64,000 nucleotides of DNA from Amphiura filiformis (taxonomy: Eukaryota; Echinodermata; Ophiuroidea; Amphilepidida; Amphiuridae): the NCBI RefSeq assembly GCF_039555335.1, contig NC_092647.1:9989274-10053273 (forward strand), written 5' to 3'. Positions 33,962 to 64,000 of this stretch are shown here, piece by piece (the first letter of the stretch is position 1; the number at the start of each line of letters is the position of its first letter). The notes beneath the pieces are model-generated. The model was not told the DNA's origin, did no database searches, and worked only from the letters and a program-made list of their open reading frames with translations. Made by a program: the position numbers and the translations under genes.

Positions 33962-33969
33962 GGAGGGTA

Positions 33970-35980
33970 GACTCGTCTACCCCGGCGATGAGAGAAGCAG
34001 CTTCTGATGAAAAGCCTCCCTACGCCGCACGTTCCTGATAAGGGCCATGCAGCTAACTGCAGGTGCTCTAGTGGTAGACTTGGTACCTCTCCTCCGGGCA
34101 TCCGGAGTAGATTTGGTAACTCGGGGAGTACTCGCGGCTGTGCCGCTAGTAGATCCACCATCGGTCGAAACCACAGGTGTTTCGCCAGAACGGTGCTATC
34201 AGAATGACGTTGCAATCCTCCTCCCGATCTTGGTCACCACCCTTGCGAGCAGTGAGATCGGGGAAAGCGTAAGCAGTCATTCCTCCCCAGTCTCACGGAC
34301 AGAGCGTCCACGGCGAATGCCTGTGGGTCTGCGACCCTCGAGCAGTACACCGGCAGCTGATGATTGCGATGAGATGCGAACAAATCTATCGAGGGGTGGT
34401 ACATCACCTCGAAGATCGTCTGGGCGACCTGCGGAGCAAGGGACCATCCTGTAGGTCCCGACACCTTTCCTCGTGACAGATCGTCCGCGAGGATGTTGGT
34501 GACTCCCGCTATGTGCATCGCTCTCAACGTAATCTGCCTGGCCTTGCACCACCCTATCAGGCGTAGTGCGTGCAGGCACAACCGTGGTGACCTGGTGCCC
34601 CTTGTCTGTTGAGGTAGGCCACCACGGTTGTGTTGTCCGCTTGGACAACGATATGAGATCCACGATCACCTTCTCGAAATGCTGGAGAGTTCTCTCCACT
34701 GCCCAAAGTTCGAGAAGGTTGATATGGAACTCCGTCTCCGTGGCCGACCATAGGCCCGAGACTGAGTCCCCGTGGAGGTGGCCCCCCCAGCCCAGTTTTG
34801 CCGCGTCGGTCGGCACTACGTGACGCACCGCTGGTGCAGGGAACCTGACACCTTGAGTCAAATTGGGCTGATGGGTCCACCACCAGAGTTCCTCTCGCGC
34901 GATCTCCGACATCGGAACCGCGAGGGATATTGGGTGACGACTGGGCCTGTAAAAGGCTAGAAGGTGTAGTTGTATAGGCCTCATGTGAAAGCGGCAGTAC
35001 GGTACAAGGTCTACCATACTGGCCATAAGGCCCAAAACCTTCATCCATGCCACAGCGGGTGCTCCCTCTGACTCGGCCAAGAGTCGGGCACACCTCGCCA
35101 TGTTCGTCACCCTCTCGGGTGAGGGCGCCGCGATCCCCTCCTTGAGGTTGATCTGGGCCCCTAAGAATAGTGGTGTCTGCGTCGGGACCAAATTGGATTT
35201 CTTGGCGTTGATCAGAAATCCCAGGTCCCGCACCGCACGGACTACTAACTCCACGAGACACTGTGTCTCCAGTGGGGTGCGTCCGTACATGAACCAATCG
35301 CCCAGGTAGCAACACATGTTGACTCCACTGCGCTTCAGGTACGCTGCCACCGCCCTGACCAGGAGTGTAAACACTCTGGGGAGGTGGACAAGCGAATGGC
35401 AGGCATCGAAACTGGTAAGTTTGACCCTGTACCTTGAAGCGTAGAAACCTCTGATCTTGAGGTGCGATCGGAACATGCAGATATGCGTCCGAGAGATCTA
35501 GCGATGCCGCCCACATACCCTTGATGGGGCAGGCTAGCATCAAGCGAAGTCTCCATTCTGAACCTCTTGGGCCTGATGAACTCGTTCAACGGCTTGAGGT
35601 TCAGAATGGCCTCAGTCGCCGGTCTTCTTTGGAGCCAGAAAAAGTGCTCCAAAACCCCTTGGTGAAAGGGGGGTAGACCGGGACAATCGCTTGCTTCGTG
35701 AGAAGCTGAGTGACCTCTGACAGTAGTGCCCGACGCTGGGGCCGTCTGGCGGCACTACCGTGGACCTCTGAATCGTGCAGGCGCACGAGGGGGGGCTGGT
35801 AAATTCCAGGCTGTAACCCCCACTGACCACTGACAATACCCAGGCGCCCGGTGAGATGGCATGCCATCTCTGGGCGTAATGCACAGCGGCCGCCCACAGG
35901 GGAATCCCTGTGGGAAGTCCAAACCTGCCGGCATGGACTGTCGACCGCCGTGCCCTCAGGACCGATCTGGTTTGCCACCC
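33970..35980 (-). CDS. DIRS reverse transcriptase-RNase H (frame-broken)
   Basis: The domain order is read across several frames. The RT entry region with LLTKQAIVPVYPPFTKGFWS lies at about 35978-35640, and ILNLKPLNEFIRPKRFRMET at about 35590. Motif A is SLDLSDAYLHVPI (about 35490). The catalytic box reads CCYLGDWF (about 35310), where DIRS enzymes normally have two aspartates, so one metal ligand is Gly. Thumb and connection follow (LGLMASMVDLVPYCRFHMRP). RNase H has PTDAAKLGWGGHL, the Glu of INLLELWAV, QADNTTVVAYLNRQG and ADDLSRG with IDLFASHRNHQLP. At least four small frame changes occur. The enzyme makes cDNA from the element RNA. Confidence 0.9.
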
Positions 35981-36132
35981 TTAGAAGAACGGCTCTTCTT
36001 GGGGGCTTGCCATACGATCCAGCACTACTCTTGCGCTTCCCAGATTTGTTGGGAGGTGCTGGAGTAGCCTCGGGCTCGGGTGTAGTCTGTGGTGCGCGTC
36101 CTGCTGAAGCCGGAGCTGGCGCTGAAGAACGC

Positions 36133-38892
36133 TTAGAAGACTTCTTCTTCTTGTGCTTCTTTTCGCCTTACTGCCCTTCCCTTGGTCAGGGCAGCCTCTG
36201 ACTTCTTCAGAGTGCTCTCATTGGTGGCCTTCTTTGCCCGGTCCTCCACCGTAGCGCAAAAGGCCTGTCCAAAGAGTAGCCCCTGTCCCACCGAGTCTGA
36301 CTTCTTCATTGCTTCAGCAAAGTCGGAGCCGTAAGTTGACTGGAGGGACAGACAGGCATTCTCCCGGCGGCGAGATGACATCCTATGGGCTAGGCCCATA
36401 GAACTCTCGTTGAGGTTAGCTGTTAGCACCGCTAACAGATTAACCTCGCGGAAGAGTTCGGCGTTGCCCGTGGTCGTTCGCTACCTTCCTACCGAGGTGC
36501 TCGGCAAGCGTGGTAGCGACGCTAGAGACTCTGATAAGCGAGCGTGCTCGCTTATCGATGAGCTTTAGCTCCTCCTCCCACTGGGGGGAGAACGACCCGT
36601 GCGCCTTGGCCGCAGCGGCAGGCGCTTGGCACCGTCTGGATCCATGTCAGGGACCCTGAGGTAGGTTTCGTAGTCCTCCTGCGAAACACGCAGTGGAAGC
36701 GTGCAAGCACGCGGCGTCGAAGCTCCAGCGAGCCTGACAGCCCTACGAAACCTACCCTTGAGGTCCGCCGGGAATGCAAGTGCGGGCGACCCTTGTGTGG
36801 ACGCGCTAGCTGGGCATCCTACTGAAAAGATGCCCTGGTCCTCCTGAACGGACTCCTCCTGAGAGAAAGCCAGGCCCAAACCTTGGGCCACACGGCTCAT
36901 CACCTCAGCGGTGTCCGCAGGCAGACCATTGCTAGCGAAGTTCCTCACGGGAAGCGGGGAAGGATACCTGAAGCTAGCTGCACAGCCTCATCAGACTGTG
37001 AGTCGCTACTGGTTTCATCTTCCGACTCCTTTCCCTCGCCTTCAGACTCTGACTCACTCTCTGATGAGGAAGAGATCTGACGACGGGCATCTGAAGGTGG
37101 GCAGGGAGGTGTCGCCACCGTGTGGCTAGCCAACTGAACACCAGCAGAAGAGGGAGTACTCCGCTAGACCCCGAGATGCTAGCTATAGCACCCCGGGCTC
37201 CGCACGCTCTCGCTGCTGTCGCCCTAGCCATAGCAGTGTGCGGCCTACCCTGAGCTGTCTCAGGGTTAGCCACTCCCCGCCCGGGTTGGGTAACAACTGG
37301 TGGTACTGCTTGCCCAACGCTAGGCGGCACTTGCCACGGTGCTAGACCGTGGAAGAAACCACCCTGCGGCGGATACCACGGGGCATACCCTGTTGGTAGC
37401 TGACCCTGAAAGGATCCACCACCAGGGAAACCCCATGGAACGGCAGTACCAGTACCGCCTCCCCCTGTTGCCACAGAGACTGTGGTAACCAGGACGCAGT
37501 ACTGCGGTACCTGCGTGGTTGTAGCGTAGGGTGCCCGGTAGGGCTCCCCGGCCTGCGCACCACTGTACCCATGCCTCACAGCGTTCCCCGCTAGAGGATC
37601 AAGCCGTGTGTATGGGTACCCCGCTATACTGGCTGTCCCTTGGCTAAAAGGAGCTTGCCTAGTATCACGGGTAGCTGAGCGTGTATACCCTCGATCAGTC
37701 ACCTCGCTACCTGAATAGGCAGGATCAATCAATGGAGCCATGCTCCGCTGAATAGATAGTGATCGATCATAAGAGGGTAATTGACCCATTGACTTTAATG
37801 GATCACCCACGCTCTGCTGGCTCTCGAGGACATAAGTGGGTTGTTGATCAGCCAGGCTGTTCAAACTACCTACCCTAACCTCTTGAGCCTCGCCCAAGGT
37901 CGCTGTGTGTGGCGGCCCACTCCCGGCAGCTATGGGCGCGTGCATAGTGGCTACCACTGAAGTCAAGCCGTAGCTCGTCTCGGTAGCTGCCACTGTTTGC
38001 ACTTGGGTCGCTGTCCCGTGAGAGACTGCGAGCCCATCCCCGGTATAGCCGCTAGCCAGTCCCGGAGGACAGCCGGCAGCCATTCCAAGGCCCAGGGAAT
38101 CACTCGGCGGTCCCACCATGGAACGCTGCCGTGTGACAACCCCAGTTGGTTCTGCTAAGACTACACCAAGCGTTAGCCCGGTATCGTCTCTGCTAAACCC
38201 ATGCGCGTTTTCATTCGACCCTTGCGGGGAGCGAAAAGCGTGCTGCGTGCCGTGGATCAACCCAGGCAAGCCCGGGGTTCCACTGGCACGCTGCGTGCTA
38301 CAGACCGGCCGAGGCAAGTCCGCTGCACGCTGTATGCTAGGATTCAACCCAGGCAAGCCCGGGGTACCCTTGGCATACTGTCCGTCGCCGGCTACTTCCG
38401 CGGGTGCTAGACCCGCTCGTTCGCCAGCAATAGACGGGTGTCCACTTGCAAGAAACTCGCTAGAGATCTCACTGGTAGACTGGTACTCGCCTGTTAGGGC
38501 AAGTACCGCCCTGCTGCCTGCTACTAGCTTAGACGTTAAGTCAGTGCTTTCGCTGGCTGCTAGGCCTTCGGGCTCGCTAGCCGTCCCCGGAGGGTCCGCC
38601 TGCTTGCCCGGGACCGGAGCCCCAGAGGTTACCTTAGCGTGGCCCTTCCCGCCGCGCTAGTACCTACCATATCAATCTTACCTGTAGGCTTCTGTTTCTT
38701 AGTCTTCGTCTTCTGTCTGTGTCGAAGACCTAAACGGGCGCTACTTTCTAAATCCTCGAAGTGGATGTCCGATAAGCCTATGCAAAAGGAAGCACACTTA
38801 TTTGATTTAGAGCAATCCCTGTGGGTGTAGCAGAGTGGATGCGGGTCCCACTCTGCCACAAGGGAAGGGCATGATTGACAAGGCCTGGACAT
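36133..38892 (-). CDS. DIRS gag-like ORF1 region (frame-broken)
   Basis: The product would be a nucleic-acid-binding particle protein. The N-terminal piece (38892-38629) holds a cysteine/histidine cluster, PCQSC...DPHPLC..HRDC...NKCASFC, typical of the start of ORF1 in DIRS-like elements, followed by basic residues. A long open stretch (to 36974) is low-complexity and rich in Gly, Pro, Ser, Thr and Gln. Two further pieces continue downstream: 36948-36565, with ADLKGRFRRAVRLAGASTPR, and 36429-36133, with QSTYGSDFAEAMKKSDSVGQ. The pieces lie in different frames. Function is inferred from position upstream of RT and from the Cys cluster. No close homologue is recognised. Confidence 0.75.
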
Positions 38893-46917: not shown

Positions 46918-47091
46918 AGATATCATATTTGATGGCTTACAACTACTTAAATCAATACTTCCAAAAGATGCATTCAGTGGGCATGGCACACAAGGACTGC
47001 AGCTATTCTTATGAGGTTGCATGCATTATTAGAAAAACAATAGGAGAACAGTAAAGGTGATCATATTGTGATATATTTATTCACTTTTCAG

Positions 47092-47240
47092 ATTTGCACA
47101 ATATGCCAGGACAGGAGGGCAATGTTCAGGATGAGATGCGCAAACCGCATCTGTGGAAAATGTATACAACAATTCTTTGAATTAATTCAAGGAGGAGGAG
47201 AACAGTCAAAATGCCTCATTTTGACTTCTTTTTTCCCATT
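47092..47240 (+). pseudogene. RING exon, unit 1 (degenerate)
   Basis: It is preceded by TTCACTTTTCAG and followed by GTAAGTTTGAGGG, the same splice sites as units 2 and 3. It encodes ICTICQDRRAMFRMRCANRI-CGKC, a C3HC4-type RING start, but the metal-binding His is Arg (CANRIC against CNNHIC). The final Cys pair region is shortened so that only one cysteine of CPFC-like sequence remains. It cannot fold as a complete RING. Confidence 0.75.
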
Positions 47241-48333
47241 GTAAGTTTGAGGGAAAATATGCATCATTACAAATTTGATCAATTATCTATGCCAAAGCAT
47301 AAGGCCTCTTACAGTCTCAACCAATGCTGGATACATCATCATGAAAGGTTTCTTTAAGCACAGAATGTCAAGAGAATTGGGCACTTTTACAATATGGAAA
47401 TGTCCCTCTTAAATAGGCATGGAATGTGAGGAAGCAAATAATGAATTCTATTGGGCCGAACAGTAATTAGTTTGGCTTTGACTGGAAAGTATTATAGAGT
47501 GAAGGTGATCATATTGTGATATTTATTTACTTTTCAGATTTGCACAATATGCAGGGACAAGGCTGTCATGTTCAAGTTGACCTGCGGCAACCACATTTGT
47601 GGTTATTGTATATACAGAAGATATTTGAAACAAACAAAGAAGAAGAAGATGATGATCCAGCCAAATGCCCCTTTTGTAGGGATGAGCTGACCGCATTCTA
47701 CCCATTGTAAGTTTGAGGGAAAATATGCATTATTACAAATTTGACCAATTATCTATGCCCTTGTAATGGGGCACAGTCAATGGAATGTTTACTGCTCTAC
47801 CTCTTTTCATATAAAATTTGCACCAAATATAGCTCAACACATGCCTAATCTATTTTCAATTGTTACCCAAATTTAATTTGCACATTTCCAGATAATTAAG
47901 TCTTAAAACAATACGGTTGTAAAGTATTACGCATTTCATAGCTATCCCCTTATCTCAAGGATTACCCAAACCCACTGAAATAGTGAAAAATGTTTTTATT
48001 TTAGAAATTTGGAATGATTTGAAAAAATGTTTTTATTTTTAAAAAAATTGGAATATTTTTAATATGTTTAACATGAAATGATTGTGTTTCACTCCCGATC
48101 TTGAGGTAAACCAAAGGCCTTTAACGTCATCCTCAACCAATGCTGGATATAAAAGGTTTCTTTGGGCACAGAATGTCACAAAATTGGGCACTTTTCAAAA
48201 TATGGAAATGACCCTCTGTCAAATATGCATGGAATGCGAGGAAGCAAATAATGAATTCTATTGGGTCCAACAGTAATTAGTTTGGCTTTGACTGGAAAGT
48301 ATTATAGAGTGAAGGTGATCATATTGTGATATT
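47240..48333 (+). repeat. Tandemly duplicated RING-unit intron sequence
   Basis: Introns following each RING exon share long blocks, for example AAATATGCATTATTACAAAT and GGCATGGAATG(T/C)GAGGAAGC and the pre-acceptor block GGTGATCATATTGTGATATT. Unit 1 has a shorter intron (47241-47537). Units 2 and 3 contain an extra approximately 350-bp block (about 47756-48080 and 51355-51690). The array arose by tandem duplication. A frame CQICMECEEANNEFYW near 48217-48264 recurs in each unit and might be a second short Cys-containing exon. Confidence 0.75.
47538..47706 (+). pseudogene. RING exon, unit 2 (frameshifted)
   Basis: Perfect flanking splice sites (TTTTCAG and GTAAGTTTGAGGG) bound the exon. The first half reads ICTICRDKAVMFKLTCGNHI-CGYC with all first-half ligands. 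A 2-base gain just after CGYC (TGTATATACAG against TGTTTACAG in unit 3) moves the second half (DDDPAKCPFCRDELTAFYP) out of frame. Confidence 0.8.
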
Positions 48334-50275
48334 CAGTGTTGTAGTCGAGTCCTCGTCATCCGAGTCCGAGTCCGAGTCCGAGTCCTTGGTGTCCGAGTCC
48401 AAGTCCGAGTCCGAGTCCCTGCCAATTTCTGATGTCCGAGTCCGAGTCCGAGTCCGAGTCCTCAATGTTCGAGTCCGAGTCCGAGTCTTTATGTATAAAA
48501 TTCAAACGTAGGCCTATACTTAACCAGAATTTTAGTTCTATAATTTTTTCTTGTAAATACATAATTTGCTAGTCCCCCTAGCATGCCTAGTATTGTTTTG
48601 GGACTGTGCAATAATTATATGAGCCCGGGAGGGGTGAAATTGCAAAAAATGCCCCTCTCGGCCTGCCAAACCCCCCCTTCCCGACCTGCCAAAAATCTTT
48701 GCACCCCCCTTTGCACATGCCATTTAGATACATGTTGCAAGCGCAGCGAGCAGGGTAATTTGCAAGCGTTTCCGTACTGTTTCAGTTCTATAAGCCTTTT
48801 AGAGCATTTTATTTTTTTTGTCTTTCAATGTTTATTAGATTTTTATTATGAGAAAAACAATTATCAACAAATTACAGTAATCACAAAAAAAAATAAAAAA
48901 ACAACAGCAGACAACAAATTTTAACATGAAAGTACATTTGTACATTGTTGCATTTGTTGGGTAATTCAAAATATACATGTATATCATGATCATGCAGCCA
49001 TTACCTAACATAAAAGAAAGTATTTGAAAGGTGCTCCATATGTGCCAAAAATTCCTTGTTCCCCCTCTCGGTTTGCCAAAAATTGCTTCCACCCTCCCTT
49101 TCGATCGGCCAAAAAAAAAACCTCCCCCCCCCCCTCCAATGCTCATAATGTTTGCTTCTAAAGCCCCTTAGGTAGCATACCTTGAAACCGGGGGATTTCA
49201 ATTTTGAGGACTAATTGTTCAAAAAAGGGGGTCATTCAGTGTAGGCTATATACTAAAAAAAAACCCGGTGTCATTGAGTGTAGGGTTTGCCAAAAATAAT
49301 GGGGTCATTTCATGGGCACATGACGTATGTCAATATATGGGAGTGCTCCTGCCCCCGGGCCTTGAAACAGAGTATAATCACAGACTCACAGTAACTTAGG
49401 CTTATGTTTTAAAGAGGCAAAAGATGCAATATGACAATCAAAATATGACGTCACTACCAAACTGCAGGTGCCAAACGAAGGGGTGTTGGATCTGGCTGTA
49501 TATAGGCCTATGCAGTATTATTCCGGGGGTGGGGGAGGGGTCACTCACATGTAAAGGTGGTACAGGTATGTGCTGCGGTCAAAGGTCCCTTTTTCGGGCT
49601 CTCCGACAGTTCATTAAGACCCACATTTGCATCATGCTCTAGTTCATTAAGCCTAACACTCTGAAAATTGTAGGTCTTTAGCTCAAATTTGGAAACATTT
49701 TAAAATTATTAGCTCCAAAGCCCACATGTATAATTCGCCCAATTTTTAGTTCACGTGAGACCTCCACAAAAATGTTGAAATTTCAGTTCATTAAGCCCCT
49801 ATTTTGCCCCCAAATCGGCACCGCACACCCCTACCAAAATTTAATTTTAATGCCCCAGAGTATTATTATTCATTCTAGACTTGCGTCTAACAAAGCAGTC
49901 ATGTCAAAACAAACGATTATGATTAAAATCCATTTAACCAATTAAAGATGTAACTGAAAGCAATCTTGCTTTTTGGTTGTAGGCCTACTTTTATTTACAA
50001 ACTAAATTTATTTGCATGCAAATCACGTGTTGTGATCATTGATCAAGCATAAGAGGAAGTTTTCAATGAACGAAAATAAAAGACCTAAAAAGACCCTATT
50101 TTGCCGGACGCGAGGAGGACTCGGAGCCGAGTCCCCGAGTCCTTGGGGTCCGAGTCCAAGTCCGAGTCCGAGTCCTTAGCTCCCGAGTCCAAGTCCGAGT
50201 CCGAGTCCTTGAAAAAAGGACTCGAGTCCGGACTCGAGTCGAGTCCGAGTCCGAGTCCCGAGTCCTCCAACACTG
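48334..50275. mobile_element. hAT-like element with CCGAGT hexamer ends, 1.94 kb
   Basis: The ends CAGTGTTG(T) and CAACACTG are inverted and a perfect 8-bp duplication GTGATATT flanks it (48326-48333, 50276-50283). The uninterrupted site is visible upstream of RING exon 2. Each end carries an array of GTCCGA hexamers (48352-48488 and 50102-50265) in inverted arrangement. No transposase is seen inside. A split TTA-type MITE relative occupies about 48600-49170. Confidence 0.9.
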
Positions 50276-50297
50276 GTGATATTTATTTACTTTTCAG

Positions 50298-50467
50298 ATA
50301 TGCACAATATGTATGGACCATACGGTGATGTTTAAATTGACCTGCAATAACCACATTTGTGGTTATTGTTTACAGAACATATTTCAAGCCAATAAAGAAC
50401 AAGATGACGACGATGATCCAGCCAAATGCCCCTTTTGTAGGGATGAACTGACAGCGTTCTACCCATT
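50298..50467 (+). CDS. RING-finger exon, unit 3 (intact)
   Basis: A 170-bp exon between TTTTCAG and GTAAGTTTGAGGG encodes ICTICMDHTVMFKLTCNNHI, then CGYCLQNIFQANKEQ, five aspartates and PAKCPFCRDELTAFYP. The ligand series C-x2-C, C-x-H-x2-C-x2-C, C-x2-C is a complete C3HC4 RING, a fold usually acting as an E3 ubiquitin ligase that recruits E2 enzymes. The exon starts in phase 0 and ends in phase 2. It is the only uninterrupted complete copy of the four. The hAT-like element lies 14 bp before its acceptor, so the branch-point region was displaced. Neighbouring exons of the host gene are unknown except the possible C2H2 part at 63329. Confidence 0.75.
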
Positions 50468-50480
50468 GTAAGTTTGAGGG

Positions 50481-51322
50481 TGGCCATGCGTTTTGAATTG
50501 GGCCAGTAAATAGGTGGAGATGTTACATGCGCGCGACATTTTAGGGTTCATCTTTTTAATTTTCTCAGTTAATATGCAGCCTATGTAGTTAAATTTGGTG
50601 TCAAATTAAAGCTTGTGATGAGACCAATACAGTAAACCTTAAAAAAGTTGTAAAAATTTATTAACATTTGAATAATTTGCATCTAATTAGCATAATGTGC
50701 GGGGTGGAGGATGATCAGGAGGAGGATGATCAGGAGGAGCAAATTTAATAAAAGTGACCCCCAGGGGTCATATGATGCAAGAGGTCCATTTCTTTTTTCA
50801 CATTTTACAATTCACTTTAAACTGCATACTATAACACCATACAATCATATTCCAGGTAATTTAATTTGCTTTGAGAAGCAATTTTGCATATTTTATTTTC
50901 CGTTCGGGTTATACATTGAAGTCAATGGGAAAATATGCCTTGAAAGAGGCTGGCGCAAAATCATTTTAATATAATTGAACCCTATGATGTTATATATGTA
51001 TTTAAAGCTCTGACTGAGAGGAATTCAAATATGGAACATATGTGGGGTGAAGCTAACTTTTTTTTTTAATTTGTCAAATTTTACATTTTTTCCCTAAAAT
51101 ATTTGGTATTTACAGTTTCATAACTCCTTAGTGTTACACCTGGTGTCAATTTAAAGTGCATTTTTGGATTCCTTGGTTCATTTGCAGCTAGAAAATGTAT
51201 ACTTTTATATATGTTGGGTATAATATGTGAAAGATATTCATATCTAAACAAAAAAACATGCAATTTTCATCTCGCTGAAAACATGTAACGACACGCCTAA
51301 CTCAAAACGCATGACCAGCGTA
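50481..51322. mobile_element. TIR element in RING intron 3, 0.84 kb
   Basis: TGGCCATGCGTTTTGAATTG just after GTAAGTTTGAGGG and its imperfect complement ending ATGACCAGCG interrupt intron sequence that is continuous in unit 2 (GAGGGAAAATATGCATT). No transposase or clear target duplication is seen. Confidence 0.75.
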
Positions 51323-51946
51323 GAATATGCATTATTACAAATTTGACCAATTATCTATCCCCGTGTAACGGGGCACAGTCTACGGGATATATTGTGCTCT
51401 ACCTCTTTTGATTTAATAAAATTTGCACCAAATATAGCTCAACACATGCTTAATCTATTTTCAATTGTTACCCAAATTTAATTTGCACGTTTTCAGATAA
51501 TTAAGCCTTAAAACAATAAGCTTGTAAAGTAATACACATTTCATACATATCCCCTTATCTCACAGATTACCTAAACCCATTGAAATAGTGAAAAATGTTT
51601 TTAATTTGGAATGATTTAGAAAAATGTTTTAAATTTAGAAATTGGGAATTATTTGGAATGTTTTTAACATATGTTTAACATGAAATGATTGTGTTTCACT
51701 GCCGATCTTGAGGTGAACCAAAGGCCTTTAACGTCATCCTCAACCAATGCTGGATATATAAAAGGTTTCTTAGAGCACATAATTGGGCACTTTTAACAAT
51801 ATGGAAACGTCCCTCTGTCAAATATGCATGGAATGCGAGGAAGCAAATAATGAATTCTATTGGGTCCAACAGTAATTAGTTTGGCTTTGACTGGAAAGTA
51901 TTATAGAGTGAAGGTGATCACATTGTGATATTTATTTACTTTTCAG

Positions 51947-51958
51947 ATTTGCACAATA
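51947..51958 (+). pseudogene. RING exon, unit 4, first 12 bases
   Basis: After a TTTTCAG acceptor the exon begins ATTTGCACAATA and is then cut by the ISL2EU element. The remainder resumes at about 63146. Confidence 0.75.
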
Positions 51959-52348
51959 GATCCTTTGCACGGTCAGTATCGATTTTTTCCGTCCGCCATT
52001 TGTACGGGGCTCGCCGCAGAGCTCTGTCGACTGCTGTTTTACTACGTTTACAATTACACCGGTCGGTAAATGAACTTACATATCACGTGACAGCTGATGC
52101 GCATTTTTTTACTTTTTTTCCTTTATTTGCAAGTAAAACACATGTTAGACATCAAAATCATTACAATAATATAAAAACAAATTTACATGTGTACAATAAC
52201 GCAATTTATGTTGAATTATACAAGAAATAGAAAATATTGACAGCGAACTGAACGTTACTCCGGCATATTTCGCGTCCTTTTAAACTTCCGTGTTTACAAT
52301 TAGAACTGCATGTGTGAAAAAGCTACAGTAAAACTCCAATTTCTCGCC

Positions 52349-55300
52349 ATGATTTACTCAGAATATTTTAAATCCAAGCTCAAAGGGACCGCCAAAACTC
52401 GTTACATTGAAAAAATGAAAAATGTGGACTGACAACGGACCCGTATTGCCTGAAAGACGATGCTTGGGATGCTAGACCGGCGACAATTCCCAATATCCAA
52501 CCATGGGATATTTCAGTGTACATGATACATACGCCAAGTCCGTACACCAAAGAAGCAACAAAGGTAAAGAAACAAACATCTTACATTAATTAAATAATAT
52601 TAATAACTAGCCTGAATTTGCACTAAATCTGAATAGAATTAGGAAGGAGAAATAATGCTACGACACGCACATTTTTAATTTTACAACATAAATCATGTCA
52701 CTGTCATGATCATGAGTGTCAGCTCAGATGACATGGACATGATGGATGCACTTGCTAAAGTTACAACCTGAACTGAAGTTGAACATATTACAATTTACAT
52801 GTTGAAACTTACATGTAACATGATAAGCTTACATTAACTGTCAATGGTCACTACAAGCAGTCCAGTGCAGGGTGATATTAGATAATTAGGTCGGACAACA
52901 GCATTATTTCTACTGACCACCTTATATATGCAATGCAAGGATTATTCAGTAAACATCGCAAACATTATACATTTTTAGATCTGAGAAGGAGTGGCTTCAA
53001 AATATCAACCCTGACAACTGATAACAACAATAGTGTCCTGAGCCTTTCACCATTCTTATTCATGTTTTATCTTCACAGGCGTTCAAGGGGTGTATTGGAG
53101 CTGACAATTTTGTCGAGGCAGGTTGGGTGAGGTCCCTTCGTCTTCATCAATATGGTGATCGGTTCCTTGTGTCAGCGAGAGTGCGCCATTCTATGGCAGT
53201 AAGAGCAACCCTTACCAGTGTGTGGTTTGTGGCAGAGGCAAGCGGTGAAATCATGGCGGCTCACTGTGATTGTATGGCTGGGTAAGCTACATTATTTTGA
53301 TGCGTTGACCTACAGTGAAAAGTGTGTGTTCTGATGACCAGAGACTTGTGGCAAAAAGTGCAGGTTACCTGCAATTGCGTAAATTTTTATGAATCATACG
53401 CGCCTAATCGCATTTTGGACTTTCACCACGAGCCTCAGAAGAAATCAAGCAAGCAGTGTATTTAATATTCTTCCTAAATAATAATTTGTCCAAAAGCAAA
53501 TTGAACCACAGACAATCAAATGAAATTAAATAATGATCGGGTCCGACACAGCAACTGAATGTTTCAATTATTGTTTTTTAAAAACTTGCCATTTTAGCAA
53601 TTCCTGTATGATGGAAGCAGTTGGTTAAAAAATAATAGTAATTTATATTGAACAAACTGACCAAATAATAGTTACTGCACAGTAGTCGGTACATTTAATT
53701 GTCACTTACGTCTACATGCTAGTTTTTTGTTTATTAGGCCGAAAAAGATATCATTTTAACATTAATGTTTGTTTTGAATTCCAGACTTGGTGAAACTTGT
53801 TCGCATGTTGCATGTGCAATGTCAGCTGTTGCCCGGGCTGTATTCATTCGGAAGCAAAGTGGATTAGATGCATGCACATCTCAGAAGTGTGAATGGCTTC
53901 CACCAACACAAGAGGTGAGTTTTTATTTTTATTTTTTAATAGTAAACATACAAGCTTGTTCTCAATGTACATGTGTTTGCCCATAATCCTGGCATGCCTT
54001 TTAGAATTGAAAATGTATTATTTAAAAAAATAAAATTTAAAAAAAATGTATAAAAAATAAAATAAACAAATAAATTTAATTATCATTCCTTTAGACATTG
54101 TATTTATTACCTTGTACTGCAAAAATGGCTTTGAACAGACCATTACTTTATTTTGCCTTCAAATGCCTTGCAATGTGTCTAATTAAAGGTGTGTGAATAA
54201 CAAGATCATTTAATGGAGTTTATGTGTTTACTTTATTTTTAGGTATCTGCTGCAATGGTTAGAGATATCGCTTTTGTTCGGCCAAGCACAAAGAAGAAGA
54301 AGGCATTAGCATCATCTCCATCCACCCCAGCAAGCAAGCTCCCACGCACCGCCATGACCTCTCCAAATCAGCAGAGGAATAGCGACGCCTTTTCATCTCC
54401 ATCCACCCCAACTAGGAAGCTCCCACGCACCTCCATGACCTCTCCAAATCAGCAGAGGAATAGCGACGCCTTTTCATCTCCTCCAACTACCCCATCGCGC
54501 AAGGCTAAACTGAAATCCATTCCCCCGCCAACTAAAGCTGAACTGGACGAGTGTTATGCGTCACTGGACAGATGCGAACAGAAGCCTGCTATTCTACGGG
54601 TCTTGGATGACTATGCAAAGAACTTTATTCCTGTAAGCCGTGACCCAAGGTTTCCCCGAGCCCTCGGATACCTGTACAACCCAGATACGCTGGAACTTGG
54701 CTACTTAGATCTACTGACAGAGTGTGAAAGGGTGTATTCGACTGTGCAGGTAAATAATTTTCTTTGTTGAAAAGTGTGTTTCTAATATTGCATCATGCTT
54801 AAGATAAGTATCTACTGTGATGGAGCATTTTGCATAATACCTGGCTTGGTAAAGCAAACAAAAGGGAACACAGGCAAAATAGTTGTCTTGAAAGTTTTCG
54901 CCTGTCGTGATCAGAGTTGTAACTGGGGTTGTAACACACTTATTTATCTACTATATGTGCTAACCATTAACCCAAGAGCTGAATTAGTGTAAAACATTTG
55001 AATATATCATGCCTGGCAGAATAGTTTAACCATGGCAGGCAATAATGTTCTGCGCCGGTTCTGCGCCACGCCGCCATATTACTGCGTGGCACACTTGTCA
55101 ATGGTAGAACACACACAATTATTCTGCCTGGCAAATACAATGCTCTCATCACAATCACCTGTGATGGGAGACTATGAAATTACATGTTCATGTATTTGAA
55201 TGTGCTGCTATCCTTATCTATTTACAGGTAACAGATGAACAGATCGAGTTGGTGGAGAAAAGCTCCAGGGACCAGGCAAATTGTCATCTATGGTTTCATC

Positions 55301-56761
55301 AGAGAACTGGACGTGTAACAGCTTCCATCTTTAAGGCAGCATGTTGTACCAACCCAGCCATGCCGGCGCAGAGCCTTGTAAGCGCATTTGTTCTCCAGAA
55401 GCACATCGCTTTTCTTCTGCAGCAACTAGGTTGGTATTATTTTAATGTAAATTTACAGTATATGTTGCTGTACTTGACAAAAATCTATTGCATTGTTCTT
55501 GGAAAATACTGTGTTTCCCTCAAGTGGTCATTTTGGGTAGGGCAATTATTTGACCACTTTCAAACACCACAACCCCCCTCCCCATGGCAGCAAAACCTTC
55601 ATTCCTTGCTACTGTAAAAACACTTTAATTCAATGGAATTAAATTTCTCGAATTTGAAATTTGGTACACTGTAAACAATGCCAAATTTTAATGTTGCGGA
55701 TTTTTGCCTACAGCGAAATTCACGAAATTAAATTGCCCGCAAAATTAACTTGTTTTACAGTATTCGTGCAATACTTGGTATCTTTGAAGTGGCCCCTCAA
55801 CGTGTATTATGTACTCGGATATGAATCGTGAATGGACTGGTCAAGCGTACTTTTTACCTAAGTATGGCTAGTCAAATGATTACAACAGAATGAGCTCGTA
55901 TCCATTATAATGGTACCTCTATCAGTGGAATTAAGGCATGTTTATTAACATGTTTTTTTGTTCTTTTCTACTTAGGTACGGTTGTGAACATGAAGATAAA
56001 GCAAGAAAGGCTTTCATCGAAGCGACTCGCACAGCGACACGAAAACTTCACCTGTAGAGAAGCAGGTTTACACCTCAGCGCAGAACATCCATTCATAGCA
56101 GCCAGCCCAGATGGCATTATAAGTTGTGATTGCTGTGGGGAAGGACTTCTAGAGGTAAATGCCCTTTACTTACTGCGACAAGGATCTCCCAAACAAGGAG
56201 AACTATGATCATGAGGCGATGAAGACTTTTTGCATGGCACCAGACACCGACTCAGATACTCTAGAATTGAAGCATAACCACCCATACTATTACCAAGTGC
56301 AAGCCCAAATGAACGTTTGCAAAAAGCCATATTGCGATTTTGTGATTTGGAATCACAAAGATCTTATCGTTAGACGGATTTATCGGGACACTGATTTCTT
56401 CGCAGACCAAATCCCTCAGGTGGAACATTTTATCAAATACGGCGTTCTGCCAGAACTGGTTGGCAAATGGCTAACGAGGCAGGTAGTGGCAGGGCATGAT
56501 GGGATTGTTCTGAAAGATGTAGTTAACCACGAGGAACCAGCTGATAATGACACAGAGGATACTATGGGTAAGCTGGTGTGCTACTGCAACATGCCAGCCC
56601 ATGATGAGGAGTGCATGCTGAAGTGTGCAAACAAAGACTGTGCAATTAAGTACTTCCACATGGAATGTCTGAGAATACGATGTCCACCCAAGGGAAAGTG
56701 GTACTGCCCATATTGCAGAACTTTGCCAAAGTTTAAGAGGGGAAAACAAAACAAAAAGTGA
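52349..56761 (+). CDS. SWIM-YqaJ nuclease-PHD protein of ISL2EU transposon (six exons, frame-broken)
   Basis: Exons: 52349-52563, 53079-53281, 53785-53914, 54243-54749, 55228-55443, 55976-56761, about 685 residues. All joins use GT-AG and keep phase. Start MIYSEYFKSKLKG is in a fair context. Exon 1 holds DPYCLKDDAWDARP and PSPYTKEATK. Exons 2-3 form a SWIM zinc finger (AHCDCMAG-LGETCSH). Exon 4 has a duplicated Ser/Pro-rich segment. Exons 5-6 are a YqaJ-type exonuclease (WFHQRTGRVTAS; YGCEHEDKARKAF; SPDGII with the metal Asp; GLLEV, where the Glu is followed by a broken Lys codon). The end is a PHD finger (VCYCNMP...CANKDC...FHMEC...WYCPYC). Three to four single-base frame breaks occur (about 52420, 56027, 56157-56163). 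The nuclease is thought to assist transposition; its exact role is unknown. Confidence 0.88.
54300..54490 (+). repeat. In-frame 78-bp tandem duplication in exon 4
   Basis: The segment encoding KLPRT-MTSPNQQRNSDAFSS occurs twice in a row, with nearly identical DNA (CTCCAAATCAGCAGAGGAAT in both). It keeps the frame and lengthens a disordered Ser/Pro/Thr linker between the SWIM and YqaJ domains. Confidence 0.85.
55610..55762. mobile_element. Tc1-like MITE family G, copy 2 (in intron 5)
   Basis: It starts TACTGTAAAAACACTTTAAT and ends TTGTTTTACAGTA, with TA at both ends. It sits in intron 5 of the YqaJ gene. Its body (GAAATTTGGTACACTGTAAAC) is shared with copy 3. Confidence 0.8.
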
Positions 56762-57381
56762 CTGTTACAACTCTCTTGAACATTAAAAGACTGGACTCAG
56801 GGCAGATGCATAGTTTGTTTTCTCTAATGCATGATATTGAATAGATTCGGTTGGCAGCTGGAACTTCCTTCCTAAACCATTTACTTTTCAGGACTAGAAA
56901 TTCAACGAGAATCAAGGAATTGAATCTTGCGAGTCGCGACGATTCTCTCGACGATCAGATATGAGAATAAATTTCCCTCATTGAATTGTACAGTACATTG
57001 ACCAATTTTTGTTAAATTTGAATCTTGCAAAGTGAGGCGAATTTCTAGCCCTGCTTTTTGTATGATTTCACAGAAATGTTAACATACACATAGTCCTACT
57101 GCCAACATGGTTGATGTTACTAGTATCTGTCATGTACAAATAATAAAATAACATCAGTCAAGTTAGCAGTAGACCTCTAGTGTATATCACAATTAATGAA
57201 TTTCTGAAATGTTACTATAGGCCTACAATTTTGTTTGATGCAAATTCACACATGGAAACATTGGTGGTTTATTTTCTTCTGGTATTTTATTAATACAGGT
57301 CTCTCAAAACTCATTCAATTTATTTCTTCTCAGAAAAATGTTTATCACAGTTTGTACAAGTATTTATAATGCAGAAAATAT

Positions 57382-58197
57382 TGAAATGCCCTGAGCCTAC
57401 GGGTGTCTCCCTGTCTTTTTCAGGCTTTACCTTTTTTTCTTGTATGTGAAACTTTCATCAAATGTAATGACTTCGGCGATGCAATTTTGCATCGCCATCG
57501 ACTGACGAACGGACATTGACCCAGGAGAGTTTGTTGACTTGTTTACTTGCTGTATTTTGCACAAGGCGCACATTCCTGATTGTTTGCGTATTTTCGGACT
57601 TTCATAAATGAAACCCAAATTATTCCTTTTGTTAATTAATTGACGCCAATTGCTTATAAATTGTCCCATCACTTCTCTTCCTCGTTATTGTGGATGCGTC
57701 TGCATTTGTGGTATGCATTATGCAGCGGAAGGTAGACGATTTCTGCAATGAGGGCGGAGAGAGGTGGTAACGTATCAGTAGACGCACTTTTGCGTCCACT
57801 CTCGCGATGCACTTTTACGTCGCGCCCTGGCCCTGATTGGTTGGTGCTGTTGCTGGGTCGACTGGCATGTGAGAGGAGCGTGCCATGAGCGTCTTGCGTG
57901 GGCCAGTCATCCGATGCACCTTCACTTATGATTTGGAGCTTGTTGAGTTAACACGTGCATTTGTTTCTGTGCAAAGACGGCTTGACCATTTGTTTAGAGA
58001 CATGACTTTCAATATAAGCGGCAGTCTCTGTATGGTTAGGATTCGTGTTTTATTAATAAATCGTGTTATTTTGTGATTGTAGGCCTACTTCCATTGTCGT
58101 TTTGCTCCATGTTTTTAGTTCTCTGAGTTATTTATCAGGAAATCACGCATCATCCATATACCACCCGGGTATACCACACCCTGAGTAAATCATTACA
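57382..58197 (+). repeat. 5' LTR of gag-only LTR retrotransposon
   Basis: The last 122 bp (58076-58197) are repeated at 59541-59662. The full left boundary is inferred from TG at 57382 preceded by ATAT, which also follows the 3' copy. It contains a TATA-like ATATAAG (about 58011), an AATAAA signal (about 58055) and the terminal ATTACA. TTGGTGAGCAGCGGTG directly after it is a plausible primer-binding site. Confidence 0.65.
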
Positions 58198-58223
58198 TTG
58201 GTGAGCAGCGGTGCGATTTCGAT

Positions 58224-59591
58224 ATGACTTCTGAAATCGTTAGTGAACCCACTGGTATAACCAGAGGGCAAGGTAAGGATGAATTAAACATGCATGATTT
58301 TCTGGAACAGACCAAAGTCCGGCTGCAAGAAATAAAAAGCCGTAACAGTGTCTCGTATACGAGCGACTACGCTTGTGGTAGTAGGCCTACTAGACCTACA
58401 GGGACAGCTTATTTTGATTTTGACTTTGAGTCTGAAAGTGAACCGGCGAAACTGCCGAGGCTCTCCGATTTAGAAGGGAGCACACAACAAAGTCCCTTGT
58501 GTAAAACAAGGAGGCCGTACCATTACAAAACATGTACGATGTTGCCTGTAAGTCCTGATGAGACGAGGTGCACATCAATGACAAAACCATTGATGAAGCC
58601 ATCAGAATATGACGGCTCAACACCGCTACAGGATTATTTGGCACACTTTGAAATTGTGTGTGAATTAAATGCTTGGCCTGATGATGTCAAAGCAGCATTT
58701 TGGCTACCAGCCTTAGAGGGGCTGCTCTTGCGGTTCTGAGTGATTTGGAAGAACATTCCAGGTATCACTATCCAGCGTTGATAAGCAAGACTGGAAAGGG
58801 CTTTCAACTCTGAAAATAAAGCAGAGTTGAATAAGACGCTATTAAAGAACAGAACCCGTGAAAAGGGCGGAGTCACTTCCAGAGCTGGCACAAAATTTTG
58901 CGTGAGATTAACCAAATATGCATACCCAAATACACCCAGGAGTATGCAAGACATTCTGGCTAAAGATCAATTCTTAGACGCATTAGACTCTGATATGAGA
59001 TGGAGCATATTTCAAACCAGGCCTAAGACCCTGGATGAAGCACTTGACGTTGCTATCGAGTGTGAGGCCTTCAAATTGGCCGAAAATCAGAGATCATGTC
59101 AATACGTCAGATCTGTGAGCAATCTTGAAGTAGGCCTAGACCTACAGTCGGACAAATTGGAGTCATCTGAACAAGTTGACTCGCTCATGTCGAAGGACCA
59201 AATAGTCTTACAGTCCCTGCTGGAAATTCTCAGGGTAATTCTCCAGAAGATCGAGTCTGTGCAAAATAAAGACCAAAGTTACGAAAACCAACGCCGTAAC
59301 CATGGTAACTATGACAACAAAAGACACAGAAAAGATCTGATCTGTTTTAAATGTGGAGAAGTTGGTCACTTCCAAAGACACTGCAAAACGAGTAGGCCTA
59401 TAAACTCGACAACATCTCCAACTTTGTCAAACACGTCCTATGAACATGATCATGATGACAACTCAAAACGAGTGTCAAACGTGAAAATGGTGATGCCTAA
59501 TAACGTGGTCAAGGAAAACACGGACGTGGAAGAAATGAAGATTGTAGGCCTACTTCCATTGTCGTTTTGCTCCATGTTTTTAGTTCTCTGA
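58224..59591 (+). pseudogene. Gag of LTR retrotransposon remnant (frame-broken)
   Basis: Two frames (58224-58739 and 58827-59591) give one Gag-like protein of about 430 residues. The first has an N-terminal charged region and then KPSEYDGSTPLQDYLAHFEI with NAWPDDVKAAFWLPALEG, the capsid N-terminal pattern. The second has YPNTPRSMQDILAKDQFLDA, FQTRPKTLDEALDVAIECEA (capsid C-terminal part) and a CCHC zinc knuckle CFKCGEVGHFQRHC. A frame break lies near 58725-58830. No protease, reverse transcriptase or integrase follows: the frame runs directly into the truncated 3' LTR, so pol is deleted. Confidence 0.85.
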
Positions 59592-59662
59592 GTTATTTAT
59601 CAGGAAATCACGCATCATCCATATACCACCCGGGTATACCACACCCTGAGTAAATCATTACA
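59541..59662 (+). repeat. 3' LTR fragment
   Basis: This is the 122-bp copy of 58076-58197. Its 5' part is missing, so a deletion runs from inside gag to inside the 3' LTR. It is followed by ATAT, matching the bases before the predicted 5' LTR. Confidence 0.8.
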
Positions 59663-59666
59663 ATAT

Positions 59667-60428
59667 GAACAATTTGTTATGTGTAAAGTAAATTGCGAAA
59701 TAGAACAATTTCAAATATCACAAAGATTTAAGAATAATTGTGTACATTATTTGCTCATCAGGTTTCACAACTTTGTAAAATGTTTTTCAGTGCAGCAATC
59801 TGTACACAAGAATACCACAAATAATTTGATTACATTTTCAATTCATCCAATTTGTATTATTACAAATGGATACATGTTCATGTAGCTCTTATGTGTTTGT
59901 AAAATAAGAACAAGCTGAGCCTTCGTGTGAGGACTGCATTGAAATTACCATGGTCATAAGCCCATGTTTCTGCCATCCTTCCTCTATAGTTTGCTTTTGT
60001 TCATGCTCTTTTTTTCAATTTTGCTCAACTAAAATCCTTAAAACCTTATCACAATCAAATTACATGAACATGATGATGAAGGATAGTGGAACATTCAGCT
60101 ATCACCATGGTAACTGTTTTTCTAACTCTTCCCAATTCTTCAGCATACAGCCTGCATGAAGGGTCAACTTGTCCTTAGTTATAATATAAGCAAGTTTAAA
60201 TTTCAATAGCATGCAGATTTCTGTGTCCTTGAAAAAGACATTTCAATTTGAATGGCAGTCTGTGAATAAAGATATTAAAGATATTGCAAAACTGAAAATG
60301 TTGTTTTAATGCATGATCTTTTCATCATTCCCACCTTTATAATGGTAGTAACTAGTAAGTAAACTACAATAAAATGTCAAGTCACTAGTTCAGCAACATT
60401 GAACAAAAATGTTAGAGGAACAATGATA
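59667..60428. other. Gene-free interval between the convergent transposon genes
   Basis: AT-rich spacer, probably transposon 3' untranslated sequence. No extra gene is seen. Confidence 0.5.
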
Positions 60429-60614
60429 TACTGTAAAACACTTTAATTTCAAGGATGTTTCTTTCGTGAATTGAAAATCAGTGACAATTTTATGGGAATA
60501 TAATTTCGCGATTTTGAAATTTGGTACACTGTAAACATTGCAAAATGTTTATTTTATGGATTTTTGCCTACATGAAATAAATTCGCTTGAAATTAACTCA
60601 AGTGTTTTACAGTA
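60429..60614. mobile_element. Tc1-like MITE family G, copy 3
   Basis: TACTGTAAAACACTTTAATT at the left, AGTGTTTTACAGTA at the right. Closely related to copy 2 at 55610. Confidence 0.8.
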
Positions 60615-60781
60615 ACAATTTCAACAAGCTGCATGTACAAATGATAACCAGTGTTATCAGAATGAATGCAACTGATCATCTCCAATCCCAATTTATCAAT
60701 TGATATTATTTCACCAATTTTTTTTTGCCTTATATAAAAGTTTTTCACTATAAGTTTTCATTTTACAAAGTTCTAATGTCT

Positions 60782-62667
60782 CTAGTCCATTGGCACTATT
60801 GGAAGGCAGAGGTTGGTTAGTGCACAGCATACTTTCACAAGTTTATCAATAGGGGCATCACCATTTCCTAACATATCAATACCACCAACCATTGAGAGTG
60901 GAAGAGTTCCTTGAAGAATTGAATATTTCTGTTTCACAAGCCCGATCACACTTTCCACATGAATGCGAACAATTGAAAGTTCTCTCGACCAGTCAACCTC
61001 CTTCTTTGTAAATCGCGCTTTGGCCCTCGTAAATGGTCGAATAACAAGCTCACACATTGCAAGTCGACAGTAATCGCTCACAGTAAATCCACGGTCAGCT
61101 ATGATGACGTCTCCTGCTTCTAAATAGTTCAATAGTCCACTTGTCTCGGTGATTTCCTTGTCAGATACCCGCCCTCCCAACATCTACTTATGAAAGAAAC
61201 AGTTCCTTGTGGGGTGATGCCAATTAAAAACTTAATGGTGTTGTGGTGCTTATAATTTGACCACGTTTGGGCTCGGGCTAAAAAGTCGATTGGGGTTTCA
61301 ATAAACACTTCTGTGCAGTCAATAATAACACAAGCCTTTTTGTAAAATTTCAAAAATGCAGTAGGCATGCTTGTCCTCAGAGCAAGTCGAGACGGCCAAT
61401 GTATTAAGTGTCCAAGTCTTACTGACATAGCATCAAGCACACGGTGATAGGTTCTGGAAACTGTAGAAGTACTAACATGAAAGCGATACGCTAAGTCTAG
61501 ATGTCCAAAATTATGAGTGATTTTCATAAGGAACACCATCATCTGCTCAAATGGTGTCAACTTGCAGTTCGCAATTATTTCTGGCAAGTATGGGGAGATT
61601 AGATTAAACACAGTCATTAAAGTTATCCATGATGGTAATCCAGTATAGTATACCAGCTTTTCCGAATCATCTCTTAATGCCTCTTCAGTCAGAGACATTG
61701 ACTTGATCACTTTATCCTTCTGTTGCACTGTTCGGCGCAGCTCTTCACTATCCGCGACTAACTGTCTAAGTTCCTTATCCCACTCAAGGTCAGTCTGGGT
61801 TTCTTCCTCCTTTGTCGGCTCTTCCGGTACTTCTGGCGGCGCTTGAGGTGCTTCCTGCTGATGAAAATCGATGAGGGCACATGCAGCTTCATTGGTTTGG
61901 ATCTGCTTTTTCCTTTTCTTTATTCGCTCATGTCTTTCCACAGACACACGCTTTCCTCCTGACACCGAAGCACTGTTGTGGCCCATGTTGACGGTTGGAA
62001 TCCAGTCTGGGTGAGTCTTGGATAAGCGGTAGGATGGCTTTCCTGTAAAAAAACAAAAATTAAACAATAAATTTTAAGTAATTGCTGATTACAGAACTCA
62101 TCAGTTACGGTATAGAATCTATAGATATGTAGCAAGTTGCACTTTCCGTTATTTATGATCAGTGTGTATCTTTTTACTAGACGCTTCTCTATACAAATGT
62201 TGGCAAATGGTCAGGTTACCCAGCCAGAATCACATGAAAGTATCATGGTTGAAGCTTTTTTTTAGTCATACATGTTCATGTTGTCATATTCATGTTGTTC
62301 ACAATTGACAACAAACTTTTTTGCATCGGATCATCATCGCCATCATGATGATCATCATGATGATGATCATCATGATCATGGCTGGGTGACAGGCAAAGGG
62401 CTGAAACTAATTTGAACTACATTTTACCTGAATGAAAGTGTACTGAACACACTTTACTGTGTTTAGAAGGTTCCCATGGTTTGTTAGTAGAGGTATTCTT
62501 CTCTCGTTTGAGGGCAGAAATCCAAGCGGTGCGCCTCTCCGTTGTTATTGCACGTTCATCATCAGCCTGTCTGATGGCTGGTATGGAATAGAAGCTTATC
62601 TTTTTCCCACTTTCGTCGACATCTCCGCCTCATTTGAGCAGCCAATAACACAACAAAAATCAGGCAT
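60782..62667 (-). CDS. THAP-DDE transposase of ISL2EU transposon (two exons, frame-broken)
   Basis: Exon 1 (62667-62428) encodes a THAP-type C2CH zinc finger: start MPDFCCVIGCSNE, then TAWISALKREK and VCSVHFHSG, the DNA-binding module. A GTAAAA donor and a TTACAG acceptor join it in phase to exon 2 (62042-60782). Exon 2 has a basic linker (RHERIKKRKKQ), an acidic/coiled segment, a helix-turn-helix (LTPFEQMMVFLMKI; LAYRFHVSTSTVSRTYHRVL) and a DDE_4-type nuclease. The nuclease residues are the first Asp in CVIIDCTEVFIE, QTWSNYKHHNTIKFLIGITP, the second Asp in IIADRGF, and the Glu in VRIHVESVIGLVKQKYSIL. Two single-base frame breaks (about 62595 and 61183) lie in short A or G runs. The catalytic triad is preserved. 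It faces the YqaJ gene. Confidence 0.9.
62333..62385. repeat. ATC/ATG simple repeat
   Basis: CATCATGATGATCATCATGA-type trinucleotide array within the transposase intron, able to fold on itself. Confidence 0.8.
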
Positions 62668-63145
62668 ACTGTAAGTTTATGCTCAACTTAAAATAAGAAG
62701 CAAAACTTGTTTGAAAAAGCACCGTTTTATAATTAAAATGAGGAAGATTCTATCGTATTGCGTGTGTGTGTTGACGAAAATCAGCTGATCGAATGGACTT
62801 TAAACAACGTGCTGTTCGTGCACTTTGATTTATGTAGTCGCGGCGTGGAAAAATACTCATTTTTATTCAAAATGAAAATTAAATAATAAGTCAAGGCTCT
62901 TAATATAGTTTTTAATTATTATTATTACATCTGTGTTGATAACAATTTTATTTTGAACGTTTTATTTATAAAAACCTTGTTATTTGATTTGCTCAAAGTA
63001 ACAGACTTCTTCATCAACTATACGGAAAATACTGCTACATGTCTGTGTTTGGAAAACAATACAATATCGTGCATACACAGCGTCCCGTACAAATGGTGGA
63101 CAGGTGCAAGATCGATACCGTGTGACGTCACGTGCAAGTGATGTA

Positions 63146-63305
63146 TATGTATGGACCATACGGTGATGTTTAAATTGACCTGCAATAACCACATTTGTGG
63201 TTATTGTTTACAGAACATATTTCAAGCCAGTAAAGAACAAGATGATGACGATGATCCAGCCAAATGCCCTTTTTGCAGGGATGAGCTAACCGCATTCTAC
63301 CCATT
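63146..63305 (+). CDS. RING exon, unit 4, main part (interrupted at its 5' end)
   Basis: It resumes at about TATGTATGG and encodes MDHTVMFKLTCNNHICGYCL, then QNIFQASKEQ, an Asp run and PAKCPFCRDELTAFYP, nearly identical to unit 3. The second and later ligands are intact. The first C-x2-C pair is split by the 11.2-kb insertion. The end lacks the GTAAGT donor of the other copies: the bases after CCATT read TTGCTGCGTCC. Unless the transposon is spliced out or excised, this copy is inactive. Confidence 0.7.
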
Positions 63306-63328
63306 TTGCTGCGTCCATGCCAGGGCAG

Positions 63329-63715
63329 TACATTTGTAAGAAATGCTGTATGTTTGCATCTACTGAGTACGCAGCCTTGAAATTGCATATCAAACAAGTA
63401 CATCAACCCAAGTACTAGTGCAACTATTCAAATTGTTCGTACACCGCAAACCAACAATCAAAGGTTCAGAGTCGCAAACGTGTAAAGCATCTCACAACAG
63501 TTCCAGCAGCCCCAGTTACTAGCAGTTGGGGCCCGGTTGCGACACCTTCAATGTCCGCTGCACCACCCCAGTGGACAGCGCCACCGGTTTGGCATGCAAC
63601 CTCCACCCCAGTAACCCCAGCAGATAACTGTGAGAGCGGGACCACAGACTCCAAAGACAGACGAGGAAAAAACAGACAAGGCAAAGACAGACAAGGCAAA
63701 GGCATGGCTGACTAA
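63329..63715 (+). pseudogene. C2H2 zinc-finger region downstream of RING unit 4
   Basis: After a GGGCAG acceptor the frame reads YICKKCCMFASTEYAALKIH-IKQVH, a complete C2H2 finger (C-x2-C-x12-H-x4-H). An in-frame TAG at 63416-63418 falls where a second finger begins (CNYSNCSYTANQQ; the first His is Arg). The frame stays open to 63715 through a Pro/Ala/Thr/Trp-rich segment and a Lys/Arg/Gly-rich tail (KDRRGKNRQGKDRQGKG). With the RING exon this suggests a RING-C2H2 protein, now broken by the stop. Confidence 0.55.
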
Positions 63716-63772
63716 AGGATCTCCTGCTCACAAGGCGAAACAGCAATTGGGACAGAGAAGAGATTCCTTAGA

Positions 63773-63958
63773 ATGCTATCAAAGTCAAGTATGCATAAGT
63801 TTTTCATGGTGAGCAAACCCATCAGATCAGGTTTTAAAATATTTGCCCTCTGCAATAGTAGAAATGGCTACATGGCTAACTTTGACTTTTACAGACAGGG
63901 ACCGGACAACAGGGTTGATGTGCATTGTGCCTCACTAAAGTTGCCGCACTATCAGTAA
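63773..63958 (+). pseudogene. piggyBac-type transposase fragment
   Basis: A 61-residue frame contains MVSKPIRSGFKIFALCNSRN followed by GYMANFDFYRQG, corresponding to the K-P-[IV]-[KR]-x-G-[FI]-K-[VI]-[WF]-x-L-x-D-S-x-x-G-Y region of the piggyBac DDE domain. The expected catalytic Asp in L-x-D-S is Asn. The rest of the transposase is missing or beyond the window. It may be related to the TTAA-flanked MITEs of this window, but no shared end sequence is available. Confidence 0.75.
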
Positions 63959-64000
63959 ATAAGGCGCTTCATCCATGGATTCCAGCTGTGAGAAACAATT

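Follow-up and report, generated by a model that had tools for sequence, protein, structure and literature searches.

Within a 64,000-nucleotide stretch of the Amphiura filiformis genome (NC_092647.1, positions 9,989,274 to 10,053,273 of the forward strand; hereafter the window, whose own coordinates are used throughout) we identify an autonomous-type ISL2EU DNA transposon of the PHIS superfamily, inserted by cut-and-paste into the third of a set of repeated RING-exon units, close to its 5' end, where it duplicated the dinucleotide AT; we give this reading a probability of about 93%. The element spans 51958-63144 (11,187 bp including nested insertions), and is filed as ISL2EU because the AT duplication and both of its genes match the features listed for that group in the available text of PMC4482050. 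A preliminary description of this DNA, as an 11.2-kb ISL2EU-type transposon within a RING exon, stands: joining the flanks restores a paralogue-like sequence, with AT at both edges.

The RING exons of the window comprise a partial or degenerate copy near 47092 (47050-47250), unit 1, unit 2 and the interrupted unit 3. These units and the borders of the element are as follows.

47538-47706, plus strand: uninterrupted RING exon of unit 1, a paralogous empty site
48334-50275: hAT-like element that splits unit 2 within its intron, flanked by GTGATATT duplications of 8 bases, its inverted ends reading CAGTGTTG
50298-50467, plus strand: uninterrupted RING exon of unit 2, a paralogous empty site
51947-51957, plus strand: left half of the RING exon that the element splits (unit 3), 3' of a TTTTCAG acceptor and ending in CACAAT
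51956-51957: left AT of the target-site duplication, from the empty-site join and the register of the ends
51958-52008, plus strand: left terminal inverted repeat (51 bases), imperfect and gapped, as aligned locally with the right end in reverse complement
63084-63144, minus strand: right terminal inverted repeat (61 bases), imperfect and gapped, from local alignment to the left end
63145-63146: right AT of the target-site duplication, from the same join and register
63147-63305, plus strand: right half of the split RING exon (unit 3), without the GTAAGT donor, unlike the three other copies

The empty site was rebuilt by joining the two flanks (51776-51957 and 63147-63318) and aligning the product to the paralogous copies, and the joint was gap-free in every case: 334 of 351 aligned bases were identical to unit 2 (48177-48333 plus 50284-50485, a reference itself joined across the hAT-like insertion), 308 of 347 to unit 1 (47367-47725) and 143 of 189 to the partial copy at 47050-47250, counts which take in some non-matching bases 3' of the exon end. 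The earlier proposal that intact and partial upstream copies give the empty site is thus borne out by three copies, the exons at 50298 and 47538 both crossing the joint without a gap, and the exon limits it gave, 51947 and 63305, both hold; its figure of 12 exon bases split off from the rest is right provided that the A at 51958, which is ambiguous, is included, and is otherwise 11. Taken alone, the empty site is compatible with a duplication of AT, TA or ATA. When the outermost 15 bases at the left are compared with the reverse-complemented right end, however, AT gives 11 matches of 15, whilst TA, ATA and no duplication give 2, 4 and 3 and were rejected, as the ends then fall out of register. 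Because AT alone brings the inverted ends into register, AT is the duplication and 51958-63144 the element, and unit 3 carries a 2-base AT target-site duplication at a site which reads A-AT-A in units 1 and 2. As the empty site is read from paralogues, the borders and the duplication could be fixed without recourse to other individuals. The inverted ends claimed in the preliminary description are seen both in this register and in a local alignment score of 42, which was reached by 7 of 19,870 pairs of 100-base stretches drawn at random from the same window, a background which includes other real inverted repeats of the window.

A single insertion into one RING unit is the best reading of these junctions, as AT stands at both edges and the flank joint is gap-free against all three copies, as expected from one event, with both exon halves ~95-96% identical to unit 2. 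The minor rival is a chimera, in which the halves would come from two RING copies joined through the element, either in a misassembly or when two ISL2EU copies recombined. It draws on the right half, which lacks the GTAAGT donor and runs into C2H2-like sequence whilst the left half retains its upstream intron, and on a difference in affinity, the left half being about equally close to unit 1 (94.9% over 178 bases) and unit 2 (151/157, upstream part), with an exon start identical to unit 1 over all 33 bases and to unit 2 over 32 of them, and the right half being close to unit 2 (151/159) and less so to unit 1 (82.8%). Set against the intact joint, we consider such a chimera improbable.

In the three other copies GTAAGTTTGAGG lies directly 3' of the RING exon, whereas unit 3 continues into the different, C2H2-like sequence. 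Within this right flank (63305-64000), which is cut off by the end of the window, the frame carrying the C2H2-like stretch has 4 stops among 230 codons and the other two frames have 6 and 14, which points weakly to coding, and 3' of the stretch lies a piggyBac-like fragment (DDE_Tnp_1_7, 17.0 bits, cut-off 22.4). The missing donor of unit 3 could reflect loss of an intron by way of cDNA, or the joining of two loci. The interrupted target may be a host gene or may itself belong to a mobile element. The RING exon itself reached the Pfam cut-off for 0 of the 12 families listed; in unit 2 it scored 30.9 bits for RING_XB3-XBAT31 (cut-off 50) and 25.4 bits for zf-RING_2 (cut-off 27.3), and a sequence search of the RING piece against solved structures gave nothing better than E 0.07. 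The neighbourhood holds further repeats. We take the insertion at 48334-50275 to be of hAT type from its 8-base duplications and CAGTGTTG ends, and it carries CGAGTCC-type repeats near each end. The stretch 50481-51315 is missing at the equivalent place of unit 1, has inverted ends near TGGCCATGCGTTTTGA and TCAAAACGCATGACCA, and is probably another small inverted-repeat element. Further upstream, 32994-38656 on the minus strand is a retroelement, presumably DIRS-like. Its reverse transcriptase matches lie in two frames, at 16.5 and 21.9 bits, and a match of Phage_integrase type reaches 25.3 bits; each of the three falls below its cut-off.

The element was expected to carry two genes, and Pfam finds both: a transposase with THAP, HTH_Tnp_4 and DDE_Tnp_4 domains, and a second gene with a YqaJ domain.

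60782-62667, minus strand: transposase gene (gene 1), two exons with one frame break in each
62667-62428, minus strand: its THAP exon, from ATG to GT donor
62043-60782, minus strand: its main exon, with HTH_Tnp_4 and DDE_Tnp_4, 3' of an AG acceptor
52349-56761, plus strand: YqaJ/RecE-like nuclease gene (gene 2), six modelled exons, from GT/AG borders and frames
52349-52563, 53079-53281 and 53785-53914, plus strand: its modelled exons 1-3
54243-54749, 55228-55433 and 55976-56761, plus strand: its modelled exons 4-6

In the transposase, the main exon scores 59.6 bits for HTH_Tnp_4 and 57.8 and 95.5 bits for two pieces of DDE_Tnp_4, and the THAP domain 41 bits (with the piece after the frame break spliced to the main exon). 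Candidates for the D, D and E residues are found in VIIDC, IIADR and RIHVES, with a spacing of 47 residues from the second to the third, and by analogy with the family these would be catalytic. Part of the transposase (61129-62073) found no relative in IMG/VR, and a transposase piece searched by sequence against solved structures matched nothing better than E 0.09.

The start of the nuclease gene was set at the ATG at 52349, and its frame is broken once in exon 1 and twice in exon 6. Exons 5-6, with X placed at the two frame breaks, score 64.8 bits for YqaJ (cut-off 22); they also score 34.5 bits for Viral_alk_exo (cut-off 20), whilst the exon-5 piece by itself gives 14.2 bits for YqaJ, below cut-off. 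The nuclease domain resembles that of phage recombination exonucleases of the RecE-like/YqaJ kind, matching phrog_434 (RecE-like phage exonuclease) with 56.8 bits over ~210 residues, but differs from these in sitting in an intron-bearing transposon gene. Searched by sequence against solved structures, it gave a weak match (E 0.0033) to 'uncharacterized protein R354', which we take to be a mimivirus protein; the C-terminal nuclease/PHD piece (56159-56761) found no relative in IMG/VR, and an AlphaFold model of 56159-56758, with no relatives supplied, had a mean pLDDT of 35.4 and was set aside. One of the frame breaks adjoins the nuclease LLEV, beside which we assume the E-x-K nuclease motif to lie, and because of this position the present copy, as sequenced, should not encode an active nuclease.

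On either side of the nuclease lie two motifs found by pattern match, a SWIM-like C-x-C-x7-C-x-H in exons 2-3, for which Pfam gave no SWIM match, and a PHD-like C4HC3 at the C-terminus, for which the Pfam PHD models reach 13.4-16.5 bits, short of their cut-offs. Neither motif is mentioned as flanking the nuclease in the available parts of PMC4482050, PMC9179366 and PMC12730594; in the excerpt of PMC9179366 the word 'SWIM' is absent and 'PHD' occurs only as PhD, and that of PMC12730594 contains neither word. It is conceivable, although we think it rather unlikely, that the product would be a three-part protein of SWIM-like zinc motif, RecE-like nuclease and PHD-like finger, which might serve as an accessory resection factor of transposition, the nuclease resecting DNA at breaks made by the transposon and the finger tying it to chromatin.

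Other transposons landed in the element after its own insertion. Three nested pieces were recognised.

55610-55762: MITE-like element with TACTGTAAAA...TTTTACAGTA ends, in intron 5 of the nuclease gene, identified by its inverted ends and by aligning it with the second copy
57464-59662 (~2.2 kb), plus strand: LTR/gag retroelement remnant, apparently internally deleted
57464-58197 (734 bases), plus strand: its putative 5' LTR, TGTAATG...CATTACA
58185-59591, plus strand: its gag region, with a zinc knuckle (23.9 bits, Pfam)
60429-60614: second copy of the MITE-like element, with TACTGTAAAA...TTTTACAGTA ends, downstream of the transposase gene

The retroelement remnant contains a 123-base direct repeat, 100% identical between 58075-58197 and 59540-59662 with 1,342 bases between, and the copy at 58075-58197 probably closes a 734-base LTR that begins at 57464, an outer left border which is drawn from a 7-base inverted end only. 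On this layout everything between gag and the tail of the 3' LTR would have been lost, and no match to pol was found in the two frames scanned. We also considered gag lying between 121-base direct repeats that start with TG and end with CA, an arrangement for which we take 'TR-GAG' to be the term; the sequence before 58075 resembles the rest of a longer LTR, with a TGTAATG start and AATAAA, and the internally deleted element is preferred. By eye no matching target duplication was seen for the nested retroelement, under either layout. A third, partial MITE-like copy lies outside the element at 25702-25776, a reverse-strand match to 55687-55763 (78% over 78 bases). Because the LTR/gag remnant and two MITE-like elements are nested within the 11,187 bp, the element proper comes to ~8,650 bp (about 8.6 kb) once the three pieces are subtracted.

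Han et al. 2015 (PMC4482050, available text) describe ISL2EU elements as present in animals, with AT duplications at an A-AT-T target, inverted repeats of 6-259 bp that usually start with GG, a mean length of ~4,840 bp, and genes for a THAP + HTH + DDE transposase and a YqaJ protein; the accessible part of PMC9179366 agrees on this two-gene make-up. The present element shares the AT duplication, the inverted ends, the THAP + HTH + DDE transposase and the YqaJ nuclease gene, and its inverted repeats are within the published length range. It differs in beginning with AG and AC at its two ends, not the usual GG, in its A-AT-A target, in its length (~8.6 kb once nested pieces are removed, the published mean being ~4.8 kb) and in the two motifs that flank the nuclease, SWIM-like and PHD-like, of which the available text makes no mention. 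We do not take the A-AT-A site to exclude ISL2EU, since the A-AT-T target in the text of PMC4482050 is inferred from many copies and one site is weak evidence. We count against the ISL2EU reading the AG/AC ends, the A 3' of AT, the length, the IMG/VR search without a relative, and the ends themselves, of which no second copy was found within the window.

The closest alternatives are other PHIS groups (Harbinger, Pangu, Nuwa or Spy), and the AG/AC ends recall Pangu in particular, whose ends usually begin with AG or GG (PMC4482050, available text). A 2-base AT duplication together with THAP and YqaJ speaks for ISL2EU, however, as the YqaJ second gene is named in the same text for ISL2EU alone among six groups, and membership of another group is very improbable. 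PIF/Harbinger elements resemble this one in a related DDE_Tnp_4 transposase and in having two genes, but in that text they make a 3-base TWA duplication and carry a Myb/SANT second gene; here the register of the ends gives AT and not TWA, and Pfam scans of the gene pieces returned YqaJ and no Myb/SANT match.

The ISL2EU element is whole in outline but not in its coding state. The preliminary description had called it complete-looking, which is true from end to end, but the two genes carry five frame breaks in total and ~2.5 kb of the length is later nested insertions. Neither protein could be made whole from the element as sequenced. Apart from the breaks there are zero stop codons within the modelled exons, and open stretches as long as the 314, 133 and 200 codons seen would arise by chance with probabilities of ~9e-10, 1.5e-4 and 1.7e-6 (each taken singly at the present base composition, uncorrected for the number of frames). 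This pattern of five breaks and no further stop could mean that the breaks arose in sequencing or assembly, the animal itself carrying an intact element, and the identity of the nested element's repeat over 123 bases suggests that part of the nest may be young; yet the three nested insertions suggest that the element is old, and the reverse transcriptase of another retroelement of the window also extends over two frames, which is compatible with either reading. We hold error to be a doubtful explanation, though one to be reckoned with.

From the family and the domains, the insertion would have proceeded as follows. The THAP and HTH domains would bind the element ends, and the DDE transposase would excise the element elsewhere and join its ends to a target cut two bases apart on the two strands, repair of which would yield the AT duplication; cut-and-paste insertion with a two-base stagger, as the family suggests, fits the empty site. 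The function of the additional genes of ISL2EU is given as unknown in the available text of PMC4482050. Because the domain of the second gene is RecE-like, its most likely role, which is a guess, would be 5'-3' resection at donor or target breaks. Later, further transposons landed in the element, and the breaks in its frames are due to decay or to sequence error.

The nested LTR/gag element, the two MITE-like insertions, the frame breaks, the hAT-like insertion of unit 2 and the missing donor all go beyond the preliminary description. Its expectation of a useful reference is met in part, as the copy is now annotated but is damaged, with genes partly out of frame and nested insertions along its length. 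The element is an ordinary ISL2EU insertion, which leaves the picture of the family unchanged, and provides an annotated reference copy of ISL2EU with an exon model of its little-studied nuclease gene.
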